A DNA stretch of 64,000 nt from Pseudodesulfovibrio sp. (GTDB lineage: Bacteria > Desulfobacterota > Desulfovibrionia > Desulfovibrionales > Desulfovibrionaceae): NCBI GenBank assembly GCA_016342345.1, contig JAEINO010000003.1, positions 1-64,000 of the forward strand. Direction: 5' to 3'. Shown here piece by piece: positions 3,506 to 7,012 of the stretch; the stretch's first letter is position 1, and every line of letters begins with the position of its first letter. The notes under the pieces were generated by a model that searched no databases, was not told the DNA's origin, and saw only the letters and a program-made list of their open reading frames with translations. Made by a program: the position numbers and the translations under genes.

Positions 3506-3851
3506 GCCCGGCTTGGTACACGATTCAATCCCGATTTAGCAAGACCAGAATAGCTGCGAGACTTCGCCCACAGGCCACAAACACGAAGGTCAACAACAAA
3601 CAAGCTGTTAAAAACTCTTTTTTCCTGGTATGTTAAAACCCGCACAGAAGGATGGTTAAGAATAGAAACACTTGATGAGTGCTTCCTACACGCAAAGAAC
3701 CACTCACGTGCAAAACATGCCGCAAACAGACACTGTCAACAGCCTGCCATGCATTATTATTTTTTATCATCATATTGACTTTTTTTTCGATTACATAGGA
3801 AAAGAATAGATGACGTCTCACTTCCACACAGAATTCAAACGGGGGGGCCTG
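3506..3851. other. intergenic region upstream of the phosphorelay genes
   Basis: No gene seen. AGCTGTTAAAAACTC at about 3603 and TGTCAACAGCCTGCC at about 3734 vaguely resemble the termini of the repeats at 2649-2917 and 51381-51547 and could be a decayed copy, but the match is weak. Just before the receiver gene, TTGACT (3775-3780) lies in an AT-rich stretch, without a convincing -10 at the right distance. Confidence 0.3.
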
Positions 3852-4247
3852 ATGCGAGCACTTATTGTCGAAGACGAATTTTTAAGCAGAAAAGTGCTGC
3901 GGTCATTCCTGATGACCCTTTTCGAGGTAGACATCGTAGTCAACGGACGCGAGGCAATTGAGGCATTCAGACTGGCCCATACAGAAAAACACCCTTATGA
4001 CCTGATCCTCATGGATATAATGATGCCCGAAGTGGATGGCATCGAAGCATTGCAGAAAATCCGCAACATGGAAGAAAAGGACAACCTCAAGCCCAAGGTA
4101 AAGGCCATCATGACCACGGCACTGGATGACCCTCAGACAGTCATCAAATCTTTCTACGACGGCGAAGCCTCTGCCTACATCGTCAAGCCGGTTGCCAAGG
4201 ACAAGCTCTACAACGAACTGGAAAAACTCGGCCTCTTGAACAAATAA
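3852..4247 (+). CDS. stand-alone CheY-like response regulator
   Basis: 131 residues from the ATG at 3852, chosen over an in-frame ATG at 3810 because a G-rich Shine-Dalgarno lies just before it and the receiver fold begins there (MRALIVEDE). The acidic pair E7/D8, phospho-acceptor D55 (LILMDIMMPEVDG), T88 and K112 (VKP) are all in place, so it should be phosphorylatable. There is no output domain. First gene of a tight rightward operon with an Hpt/STAS protein and a CheA-like kinase, and so the likely phosphate acceptor of that relay. Confidence 0.92.
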   Translation: MRALIVEDEFLSRKVLRSFLMTLFEVDIVVNGREAIEAFRLAHTEKHPYDLILMDIMMPEVDGIEALQKIRNMEEKDNLKPKVKAIMTTALDDPQTVIKSFYDGEASAYIVKPVAKDKLYNELEKLGLLNK

Positions 4248-4261
4248 AGCAAGGACGATCC

Positions 4262-4987
4262 ATGAGCGAAGATCCTATGGTCGAAGAGTTCTTCTCTGAA
4301 CTCAACGACAAATACTACCCTCAAGTAATGGAGGGGCTTGAAATGCTGGAAAGCGACGATGTCGCCGAAGGCATTGAAATCCTCGCTCGCCCGCTGCATA
4401 CCATCAAAGGCGTGACCGGATTCATGGCCGGTTTCGAGGAAGCGTCTCATTTCACACACAAAATAGAGGATTTCCTAAAAAAGGTTCAATCCCACGAAGT
4501 CGAATCCACCTCGGAGAACCTGACCCTGCTTTCGCGCGGCATCAACATGATTTTCCAGGTTCTCGAACAACTCAGGGAGGGCGACCTTGATGTAACGGAA
4601 CAGGAACAGGTCCTTGCTCTCATCACGGAAGCTTCCAGCAGTGATCAGGTCGAAACCACGACGTCGGGCGCAGGAGTTGATGTTGAAATAAGGGACAATG
4701 TGACCATCATTCGGGTCAATGACCCTCGTGTCCACATTCGCAGCCAGTTCAATCCAATCATATCAGCCATTCTCGTCATCGAACCGGGTGACAGAATCCT
4801 GCTTGATCTTTCAAAAGTTCTGACTTTCGGTTCCTCGGCATGGGGAACAGTGGCCAGTATGGGTACAACCTTCAAGATTGCAGCCTGCGGCCTGACTTCG
4901 GATGCGAAACAATCCCTCTATTCATGGGGTTTTGACAGCATCATCTCAATTTACACTGACGAAGACACCTATTTTACGGCACAATAA
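4262..4987 (+). CDS. Hpt phosphotransfer protein with C-terminal STAS-like domain
   Basis: 241 residues. Residues ~1-105 form an Hpt domain: RPLHTIKGVTGF carries the phosphorylatable His46 in the HxxKG context found in CheA P1 domains. A linker (~110-138) leads to a STAS/anti-anti-sigma-like domain (~139-240) with the strand-turn ILLDLSKVLTFGSSAWG; Ser191/192 sit where anti-anti-sigma factors have their regulatory Ser. The gene starts 14 bp after the receiver gene. It probably supplies in trans the P1 function missing from the neighbouring kinase and may pass a signal to a partner through its STAS part. The STAS call is by fold pattern, less certain than the Hpt. Confidence 0.85.
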   Translation: MSEDPMVEEFFSELNDKYYPQVMEGLEMLESDDVAEGIEILARPLHTIKGVTGFMAGFEEASHFTHKIEDFLKKVQSHEVESTSENLTLLSRGINMIFQVLEQLREGDLDVTEQEQVLALITEASSSDQVETTTSGAGVDVEIRDNVTIIRVNDPRVHIRSQFNPIISAILVIEPGDRILLDLSKVLTFGSSAWGTVASMGTTFKIAACGLTSDAKQSLYSWGFDSIISIYTDEDTYFTAQ

Positions 4988-4996
4988 GGGGAGTTC

Positions 4997-6661
4997 ATGC
5001 AAGACAGCATAATTCAATGCATCGAGGACATGGAAAAACAAATCCTCGACATGGACACATCCGGCTCTGGGGCCGGGGAAACTGTCGATGCGCTCGGCCT
5101 GTCCAACATGCGTCTTTCCTCCGCCGGTGTCATTGCCCTGCTGGACATGCTCACGGAAGGAATCACGCCGCTCAACAACGATATTGTTTCCGCCATGCTC
5201 GGCATCTGTGAAGCACAAAAGAAGTTTTTCTTCGCACTGGGCGGCCTGCTTGAAGGAAGCGGTGAAGCCCTCGGCAAAATCAAGACCAAAACCGCACCTG
5301 TCAGGAAAGAATCGGAAAGCGAAGCCGAAGCCGCCAGGATATTCGATGAAGCGGCAACAGCCGAATCAGAACACCCCGAAGAAGCAACAAAAGACGATCC
5401 AAAAGAAACAGAGGCCAAACCACAGGCCAAAGCAGAACGTATCGCTGCGCCCCAGGCCATCTCCTCCATCCGTGTCGCCACCGACCGCCTGGACCGCGTC
5501 ATAGAGTTGGTAGGCAAACTCATGGTCACATACGCAGTCATTGCTCAGGGCGGTGCACAGAATCTCACCCAGGTGGCCTCATCCCTGCGTGAACTGGACC
5601 ACGTCATCAACAACCTTCAGAAAGAAGTAAATGCCATTCGCCTTGTGCCCCTCAAACAGATTTTCCTGCCCATGCATAGACTGGTGAACAGCCTGAGCCA
5701 AAAAATAGGCAAAAAGATCAACTTCACCGTCAAAGGCGAAGATCTGGCCTTGGATAAAACCATTGTCGAATGCCTCAATGAACCCCTGGTCCACCTGCTA
5801 AGAAACGCCGTGGACCATGGAGTGGAGGACATCGAAGGCCGCAAGACTGCCGGAAAGGTCGAGACTGGCGAGGTGGTTCTGGAAGCATGGCGCAAAGGCG
5901 ACAGCGCATTCATTCAGGTCCGGGACGATGGCAAGGGTCTTCATCCTGACAGAATCCTCAACAAGGCCATCGAAAAAGGACTGGCCGAGCCGGACAAGAA
6001 ATACGAAACCAGCGAAATTCTCCAGTTCGTGCTCCAATCGGGATTCTCCACAGCCGAACAAATCACCGATGTCTCGGGACGCGGCGTGGGCATGGACGCC
6101 GTGGTCAACGCCATCCGCGTCACTCTGGACGGCGACATTGAAATTCAGAGTGAAGTGAGCAAAGGCTCGGCTTTCACCATCTCCATCCCTCTGGATCGCT
6201 CAGCCAACCAAGGCATCGTCGAAGCTCTGGTCTGCAAAGTGGGCGGCGACACGTTCATCGTTCCCAGTCGCGATGTCAGGGAAATATACATGCCGCGAAC
6301 CAATGATGTGGTCCAACTCCCTGATGGTCGTGAAACCGTGGACGTTCGAGGAGAGATCCATTCACTTCTCAGGCTGGCCGACTTGCTCGGTCTCACCGCA
6401 GAGCAGGAAGACATCGAAAAAGCACAGACTATCGTAGTCCGGGTCGGAGACTACAAGGCGGCCATTCTGGTGGATGAAGTCCTCAAACAGCAACAGGTCG
6501 TCATTACCGGCTTCACTGTACCTGTCGAGGAAATATTCCACATCCCCATCCTCGGTTACGGAATGATGGGTGAATCCGATGCGCTGGTCCTCGACACCGA
6601 AAAGATGCTCCAGCACTTCGAAAACAGCATCCACCTCAAATCGACAGCCTCCTTGACATAA
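4997..6661 (+). CDS. cheA: CheA-like histidine kinase lacking the P1 (Hpt) domain
   Basis: 554 residues. The region ~150-215 is the P3 dimerisation domain (IRVATDRLDRVIELVGKLMV). The P4 ATPase follows with N box HLLRNAVDHG (266-275), G1 VRDDGKGL (308-315), F box GFSTAEQITDVSGRGVGMD (349-367) and G2 SKGSAFTISIPL. Residues ~404-545 are a CheW-like P5 domain. The N-terminal ~95 residues are helical but contain no HxxKG motif, and ~100-148 is a charged linker. The kinase must therefore phosphorylate another protein, most simply the Hpt protein encoded 9 bp upstream. No MCP, CheW, CheR or CheB gene is nearby. Confidence 0.93.
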   Translation: MQDSIIQCIEDMEKQILDMDTSGSGAGETVDALGLSNMRLSSAGVIALLDMLTEGITPLNNDIVSAMLGICEAQKKFFFALGGLLEGSGEALGKIKTKTAPVRKESESEAEAARIFDEAATAESEHPEEATKDDPKETEAKPQAKAERIAAPQAISSIRVATDRLDRVIELVGKLMVTYAVIAQGGAQNLTQVASSLRELDHVINNLQKEVNAIRLVPLKQIFLPMHRLVNSLSQKIGKKINFTVKGEDLALDKTIVECLNEPLVHLLRNAVDHGVEDIEGRKTAGKVETGEVVLEAWRKGDSAFIQVRDDGKGLHPDRILNKAIEKGLAEPDKKYETSEILQFVLQSGFSTAEQITDVSGRGVGMDAVVNAIRVTLDGDIEIQSEVSKGSAFTISIPLDRSANQGIVEALVCKVGGDTFIVPSRDVREIYMPRTNDVVQLPDGRETVDVRGEIHSLLRLADLLGLTAEQEDIEKAQTIVVRVGDYKAAILVDEVLKQQQVVITGFTVPVEEIFHIPILGYGMMGESDALVLDTEKMLQHFENSIHLKSTASLT

Positions 6662-6681
6662 GGTCTGACGCAAGCATAAAA

Positions 6682-6845
6682 GGCAACTTCAGGTGTCCTG
6701 AGGGACTTGATAGGGAATCTCGTGTGAATCGGGAGCGGACCCGCCGCCGTGACGTTCTGTTGATCTGTTTTCATTGTGCCACTGGGTACCCCCGGGAAGG
6801 CGAAAACAGGAAGAACCAGCCGGAAGACCTGCCTGAAACCTTGCA
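6682..6845 (+). ncRNA. cobalamin (B12) riboswitch aptamer
   Basis: The hallmark elements occur in order: TAGGGAATC, GTGTGAATCGGGAGCGGACC, GCCACTGGG, GGGAAGGCG and finally the B12 box CCAGCCGGAAGACCTGCC. Closing stem P1 can be drawn between GCAACTTCAGG (~6683-6693) and CCTGAAACCTTGC (~6832-6844). It heads the cbiK/ABC transporter/cobI operon and should lower its expression when adenosylcobalamin or a related corrinoid is abundant. Confidence 0.95.
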
Positions 6846-7012
6846 GACTGCTGAAAACAGGCCCAACCTATTTGTTGCGCACAAGATACAAGACCTGCGT
6901 TTGTATTCGTAACGAATTCACCAGCCTTTTGAAAAGTCTGCAACTTGCAACCAAGTTTGCCTCAATGGTACGAGGGCTTGCCATCAGTAGGTATTCGAAG
7001 GGAAAAAACGGT

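Follow-up and report, generated by a model that had tools for sequence, protein, structure and literature searches.

Split CheA-type signaling locus of Desulfovibrionaceae in which the separate phosphotransfer protein carries a STAS domain

How could a CheA-type kinase signal if its own chain offers no histidine to phosphorylate? The question is raised by three genes at positions 3852–6661 of a 64,000-nucleotide (nt) stretch, hereafter the window, from contig JAEINO010000003.1 of Pseudodesulfovibrio sp. (assembly GCA_016342345.1; phylum Desulfobacterota, order Desulfovibrionales, family Desulfovibrionaceae). On the + strand these genes encode a CheY-like receiver of 131 amino acids (aa), a 241-aa protein with a histidine phosphotransfer (Hpt) half and a STAS half, and a 554-aa kinase, separated by 14 and 9 nt (Table 1). 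An original prediction made from the DNA sequence had read the trio as a split CheA relay, and its open reading frames (ORFs) and coordinates proved correct. The domains, the conserved catalytic residues, the missing kinase histidine and the co-linear operon are established here by sequence and structure prediction, and from them we infer the steps of phosphotransfer, docking and output. We give a probability of about 0.72 to a relay in which the kinase phosphorylates His46 of the Hpt-STAS protein in trans and the phosphate moves on to Asp55 of the receiver. The predicted interpretation was upheld in part: the trans relay stood, and what had been said on the absence of P1, the serines, the input and novelty needed change.

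In a Pfam hidden Markov model search of the three proteins, the Response_reg, Hpt, H-kinase_dim, HATPase_c and CheW models scored above their cut-offs and STAS below (17.5 bits against 22.6). H-kinase_dim, HATPase_c and CheW lie on the kinase, whose residues 157–522 match solved CheA P3–P5 among PDB sequences (best E 8.2e-69). The kinase has P3, P4 and P5 but no HxxKG motif, as predicted, and Pfam finds no Hpt match in it. The P4 motifs are intact (N box HLLRNAVDHG, G1 DDGxG, and SGRGVGMD), and H266, R269, N270, D273, H274, G275, D310, D311, G312, G314 and S360–D367 are present in 56/56 kinase rows of the comparative alignments, for which G numbers denote genomes and L numbers fetched loci. 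Rows L041 and L052 were left out of alignments A1 and A3, and L039, L046, L052 and L090 out of A2. In a P3–P5 tree, 24 split kinases stand opposite 11 complete CheAs across one branch (99/98); the G044 and G589 kinases are long branches whose joint placement is unsure.

The histidine missing from the kinase is found on the neighboring protein. Its Hpt half, with His46 in HTIKG, scores 27.7 bits with Pfam Hpt (cut-off 24.6) and matches solved CheA P1 by sequence (E 1e-8). Residues 3–136 of its structural model align by VIA-align with CheA P1 (1i5n_D) over 127 residues at Z 15.8 and a root-mean-square deviation (rmsd) of 2.6. H46, T47, K49 and G50 occur in all 55 rows possessing the column. Like the second chain of a split CheA, this protein has a P1-type Hpt with HxxKG and neither P3 nor P4; Pfam also finds no CheW-domain (P5) match in its 241 aa, the C-terminus being STAS. 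In the receiver, D8, D55 and K112 are kept in 55/55 alignment rows and T88 in 54/55, L036 having been left out. An in-frame ATG at 3810 lies upstream of the receiver start; relatives begin at the 3852 start.

The trio recurs within the family. Of 348 genomes of the order, 83 have an Hpt-STAS match at E ≤ 1e-18, and these represent 13 of 59 genera; 82 carriers belong to the window's family and one (G044) to another. Within the genus, 34 of 35 genomes have an Hpt-STAS match, full-length or (G032) in two pieces, and the sole genome lacking one, G007, is 82% complete; the named relatives are Pseudodesulfovibrio records. Among the matches listed from 395 phylum genomes, full-length Hpt-STAS appeared only in G000, G060 and G088, all of the window's family, and the next best listed covered the Hpt part, mostly in ORFs of CheA size. 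High-scoring full-length kinase matches in 199 order genomes were likewise confined to this family and G044. The order receiver, Hpt-STAS, kinase on the same strand was retained at 54/54 family loci (L037–L090, picked because Hpt-STAS or the kinase matched there; strand verified for 51). Receiver-to-Hpt gaps were 8–34 nt in the 51 loci measured and Hpt-to-kinase gaps −4 to 18 nt in 50, a single value of 152 arising because that start came from an incomplete BLAST match; L039, L041 and L046 were left out of these lengths. Six further loci (L129–L134) were fetched for divergent members, of which L131, L132 and L133 carry all three genes and L134 ends at a contig end. Mean identity between the window and 19 rows of other genera, computed without L039, L041, L046 and L090, was 66% for the receiver, 65% for P4, 59% for P5, 56% for the Hpt half, 44% for the kinase N-terminus and 26% for STAS, the most variable domain. 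Because the trio is conserved across relatives, spanning 12 genera of the family, chance is excluded and the split arrangement is real.

Whether the kinase might still conceal a phosphate acceptor, which the prediction had named as a way in which it could fail, was examined over residues 1–153. The window kinase has a single histidine there, His126, in the linker, and no invariant histidine exists in this region among the 56 rows. A hidden phosphorylatable P1 was rejected as a candidate: column 37 is His in 32/56 rows, Cys in 10 and Asn in the window, and it sits 13 residues beyond the mapped P1 histidine. Residues 1–90 are nevertheless conserved and helical (mean predicted local distance difference test score, pLDDT, of 83.9 over 1–105). 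When the N-terminal profile was compared at full sensitivity with 11 complete CheAs, six aligned best at one register within P1, falling just after the phospho-histidine helix; in three the alignment was shifted by 13 residues, one aligned over a single residue, and one gave no match. The L140 alignment spans both registers, with 13 residues inserted where the histidine lies. These scores are low (best 8.8 bits), and in 100 column shuffles a cluster of six arose in none, a cluster of five in one, and the best score was equalled in one. The other approaches gave no support: hhalign against the Hpt half returned probability 0.3 and E 0.24 (STAS-half control, probability 0.5), the profile found no CheA match among PDB sequences, Foldseek found no match under E 2.7, and VIA-align with 1i5n_D (Z 4.7, rmsd 2.8, 69 residues aligned, 25% identity) fell in the noise range of helical bundles. 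Since the register test was the one approach in its favor, we regard as likely, not proven, that the N-terminus is a shrunken P1 from which some 13 residues around the phospho-histidine have been lost. The predicted description of the kinase as P1-less thus applies to function, there being neither HxxKG nor an invariant histidine, but probably not to descent, residues 1–90 being a likely degenerate P1.

STAS is a domain normally used in sigma factor control, and its presence on the Hpt chain, as predicted, was confirmed by structure. An AlphaFold2 model of the whole Hpt-STAS protein, built from 54 relatives, has a mean pLDDT of 86.9 and a predicted template modeling score of 0.53; because of the latter value, the relative placement of the halves is unsure. 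Foldseek matched the model best to SpoIIAA/RsbV/RsbS-type STAS proteins (best E 6.5e-5), all eleven matches with E ≤ 0.001 being STAS proteins, and VIA-align superposed model residues 137–241 on SpoIIAA (1thn_B) with Z 14.4 over 103 residues and rmsd 1.9. The STAS-half profile matched PDB sequences weakly (best E 0.005, 3t6o), four of the six being named STAS or anti-sigma antagonists. As modeled, then, the half has a real STAS fold. In a profile alignment with 1th8_B, Ser191 falls on the first serine of the SpoIIAA DSSG motif, the one following Asp, which is the phosphorylated serine of SpoIIAA. Of the conserved serines in the prediction, Ser191 largely held (Ser in all 56 rows but one, which has Thr) and Ser192 did not (S or T in 27/56). 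Among the six further rows, judged by eye, L129, L132 and L134 have S and L133 has T; the Pro of L130 and the Arg of L131 belong to genus g292 (G603 and G604). The residue before Ser191 is G in 46 rows, N in 7, S in 2 and A in 1, so that the Asp of SpoIIAA is not kept.

The relay thus remains the simplest reading, because the kinase has no HxxKG, its neighbor has a complete P1-type Hpt and a real STAS, and the receiver is tightly co-conserved. The kinase, a degenerate P1 followed by P3, P4 and P5, would bind ATP but have no P1 histidine of its own to phosphorylate. It would probably be activated by a chemoreceptor through P5, with or without CheW, and would then phosphorylate His46 of the separate Hpt-STAS protein in trans, from which the phosphate would pass to Asp55 of the receiver encoded immediately upstream. 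The STAS half would stand in for the P5 by which Rhodobacter CheA3 joins its complex, and by analogy with the binding of CheS to CheA, it would most likely tether Hpt-STAS, either to the kinase or to a different complex. In some lineages, of the G044 and G589 type, STAS would also serve as an anti-anti-sigma-type output facing an RsbW/SpoIIE pair.

Clues to input and output come from neighboring genes. The prediction had stated that the locus has no receptor or CheW genes and an unknown input; this is correct for the window, whose 167-kb contig gives no second CheW-domain match and no match to a methyl-accepting chemotaxis protein (MCP), but relatives have an adjacent MCP or hybrid kinases. 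Two complete CheAs are encoded on other contigs of the window genome, together with several CheW-domain proteins and about 20 of the MCP type. In G604 (L131) the order is hybrid kinase, two receivers, Hpt-STAS, kinase, and an MCP starting 15 nt after the kinase; flanking the other loci, the queries used found no MCP relatives. That MCP (L131:10482–12110), with a Tll0287-like sensor and HAMP, is the best receptor candidate for the system. On the output side, G044 has a NIT-HAMP kinase, a hybrid kinase, a receiver, an HD protein, a SpoIIE phosphatase, an RsbW-like HATPase_c_2 protein, Hpt-STAS and the kinase in a row, and G589, of the window's family, has an RsbW-like protein with a STAS-like C-terminus, Hpt-STAS and the kinase, with a receiver-SpoIIE phosphatase convergent on the opposite strand. 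No RsbW or SpoIIE relatives were found with the queries used in the fetched flanks of the window and 53 other family loci (L037–L090). Because G044 and G589 have RsbW/SpoIIE genes and G604 an MCP beside the locus, both the input and a partner-switch output are now testable.

The two RsbW-like HATPase_c_2 proteins, L129:8048–8851 in G589 (267 aa) and L036:6878–7690 in G044 (270 aa), are 41% identical over about 225 aa, and their STAS-like C-terminal stretch is 31% identical over 83 residues to the G044 Hpt-STAS; each is apparently an anti-sigma kinase fused to a STAS-like domain. No relative of this fusion was found elsewhere in 297 phylum genomes at E ≤ 1e-10, with no known holder among the genomes searched. 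Plasmid records gave no match. The window genome itself has two stand-alone RsbW-like proteins, at L127:7911–10861 (−) and L128:5488–8194 (+), with phosphatase-like neighbors, which are candidate STAS partners; from the ORFs, one adjoins a STAS-like protein as well as a SpoIIE-type phosphatase, and the other a phosphatase-like protein. Across the family, an RsbW-like match (E ≤ 1e-12) was present in 80/82 carriers vs 123/206 non-carriers, counts that are uncorrected for kinship or genome size. In carriers G031 and G206 (about 99% complete), HATPase_c_2 matches lie solely inside open frames of at least 368 aa. RsbW as an obligate partner was therefore rejected at the thresholds used, as G031 and G206 carry the operon and no stand-alone RsbW-like protein. 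Just past the kinase stop, a cobalamin riboswitch (RF00174, window 6676–6850, +, 96.6 bits) precedes a CbiK-like and metal-uptake ABC gene set and is probably unrelated to the kinase operon.

Table 1. Positions in the window of the three genes, their domains and putative phosphorylation sites
Feature	Position	Strand	Evidence
Single-domain CheY-like receiver, 131 aa	3852..4247	+	Pfam Response_reg 1.3e-20
Receiver phospho-acceptor Asp55 codon	4014-4016	+	plus Asp8, Lys112
Hpt-STAS protein, 241 aa	4262..4987	+	model mean pLDDT 86.9; each half resembles a known fold
Hpt half, residues 1-125, CheA P1 fold, His46 in HTIKG	4262..4636	+	Pfam Hpt 3.3e-6; 1i5n_D Z 15.8
Hpt phospho-acceptor His46 codon	4397-4399	+	within HTIKG
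STAS half, residues 136-241	4667..4984	+	Foldseek and VIA-align to SpoIIAA; profile alignment to 1th8_B
Ser191 codon	4832-4834	+	SpoIIAA DSSG alignment
CheA-type kinase, 554 aa, with no P2 and no P1 that can be phosphorylated	4997..6661	+	Pfam; PDB matches to CheA P3-P5
Kinase N-terminal domain, residues 1-90, four helices, conserved, probable P1 remnant without His helix	4997..5266	+	model; register test
P3 dimerization region, residues 154-212, approximate borders	5456..5632	+	H-kinase_dim 2.2e-5 at 156-212
P4 ATP-binding domain, residues 213-400, approximate borders	5633..6196	+	HATPase_c 1.6e-13
P5/CheW-like domain, residues 401-540, approximate borders	6197..6616	+	CheW 1.9e-18 at 410-540

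Several observations weigh against the relay as drawn. L130 (G603) has no free receiver match in the fetched 18 kb, its receiver lying within a hybrid kinase only; the nearest receiver of G589 is the phosphatase fusion on the opposite strand; the MCP neighbor occurs in one genome only (G604); the G032 Hpt-STAS gene (L041:8382–9109) is split near residue 93 into two frames that overlap; the G001 kinase frame (L046:6472–8176) is broken between the N-terminal domain and P3; the G008 kinase ORF starts only at residue 51; and hybrid histidine kinases, possible Hpt donors, adjoin the locus in G603, G604 and G044. G032 is a one-contig genome for whose broken frame a sequencing error is possible, and in G001, P3–P5 are left in an open frame of their own. 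The isolated breaks in G032 and G001 could be taken for a broken, functionless CheA gene in decay, an idea already disfavored and hardly credible for a locus conserved across 12 genera with invariant catalytic residues. The receiver-bearing hybrid kinases raise the alternative of an Hpt-STAS whose main task is to relay for hybrid histidine kinases encoded elsewhere in the genome, with the CheA-like kinase acting as a regulator or phosphatase; yet the ATP motifs of that kinase are invariant, it adjoins Hpt-STAS in 54/54 family loci where hybrid kinases are not generally present, and the Hpt is of the CheA P1 type, so that this is very unlikely.

Other alternatives concern what STAS does. It may be purely a docking or oligomerization domain like CheS, bringing Hpt to the kinase or biasing receiver choice with no serine chemistry, a view we hold tentatively at somewhat short of even odds. 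In the available text of the review PMC12654446, CheS consists of one STAS domain, binds CheA and alters CheA–CheY handling; Hpt-STAS, having no P5, needs some other means of reaching the kinase, and the fast divergence of STAS and the serine loss in g292 fit. Less easily accommodated are the near-invariant Ser191 outside g292 and the RsbW/SpoIIE genes adjoining Hpt-STAS in G044 and G589. These gene rows, with S or T at Ser191 in 56/56 rows, a STAS half that matches SpoIIAA solved with SpoIIAB, and the RsbW-like matches of carriers relative to non-carriers (again uncorrected), would fit a protein of two chemistries, with phosphate on His46 and, on Ser191, a switch operated by an RsbW-type kinase together with a SpoIIE-type phosphatase, so that the CheA relay would be linked to partner switching of a sigma factor or the like. 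That proposal is a contender but doubtful, given the absence of RsbW/SpoIIE relatives from the flanks of the window and 53 family loci, the frames of at least 368 aa that hold the HATPase_c_2 matches of G031 and G206, the Pro/Arg of g292, the loss of the preceding Asp, and the variability of STAS (26% vs 56% for Hpt). In a fuller version, which we consider unlikely, a CheA that lost its P1 histidine helix would write His46, an RsbW-type kinase would write Ser191 and a SpoIIE-type phosphatase (perhaps itself a receiver target, in G589) would erase it, the window being a stripped, receiver-only form that keeps STAS as a docking or partner-switch arm. Were this so, a chemosensory array could directly set a sigma-factor or similar partner switch.

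How, finally, does the trans relay to Hpt-STAS compare with described systems? In the available text of PMC3591291 (architecture also in that of PMC6829392), CheA3/CheA4 of Rhodobacter sphaeroides are an established case of phosphotransfer in trans by a split CheA, and a study cited in PMC3591291 counted 11 split against 470 complete CheAs, making split forms rare. The likeness, from the same portions of these papers, is a kinase chain without a phosphorylatable P1, P1 on a second protein, and a CheY target. As described there, however, CheA3 has its own P5 and a phosphatase domain, whereas the window P1 protein has STAS and no P5, and the Rhodobacter cluster has cytoplasmic receptors and adaptation proteins, of which the window locus has none. 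CheS of Sinorhizobium meliloti also ties a STAS domain to CheA and CheY handling, but as far as PMC12654446 describes it, this is a free STAS beside a complete CheA, whereas here STAS is fused to Hpt and the kinase has no working P1; the likeness is one of description. HptB-HsbR-HsbA of Pseudomonas aeruginosa, in the text available from PMC6482189, is a pathway that combines an Hpt with a receiver-PP2C regulator and a STAS-type antagonist of an anti-sigma factor, recalling the G589 genes, but it places Hpt and STAS on separate proteins, with hybrid kinases upstream and no CheA-type kinase. With SpoIIAA/RsbV the window STAS shares its fold (Z 14.4, 1thn_B) and a serine at the DSSG serine place, but it is fused to Hpt, has lost the Asp before the serine, and has no adjoining RsbW/SpoIIE genes. 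PMC2829493 held nothing relevant on split CheA, Desulfovibrio or STAS, and no paper on an Hpt-STAS protein was found in a literature search that reached few subscription papers. The predicted novelty therefore narrows: going by these papers, a P1-less CheA with P1 in trans and a CheA-binding STAS are each described, and no paper was found on their fusion, so that what is new is the P1 in trans fused to STAS without P5. The case discussed in the available text of PMC3591291 being Rhodobacter, the Desulfovibrionaceae locus offers a second form of split CheA, family-wide and co-linear, whose second chain differs; the part played by STAS, the dead N-terminal domain that persists and the lack of P5 are each testable there. 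The G044 and G589 gene sets add a concrete link between CheA-type signaling and partner switching, which are usually studied apart.

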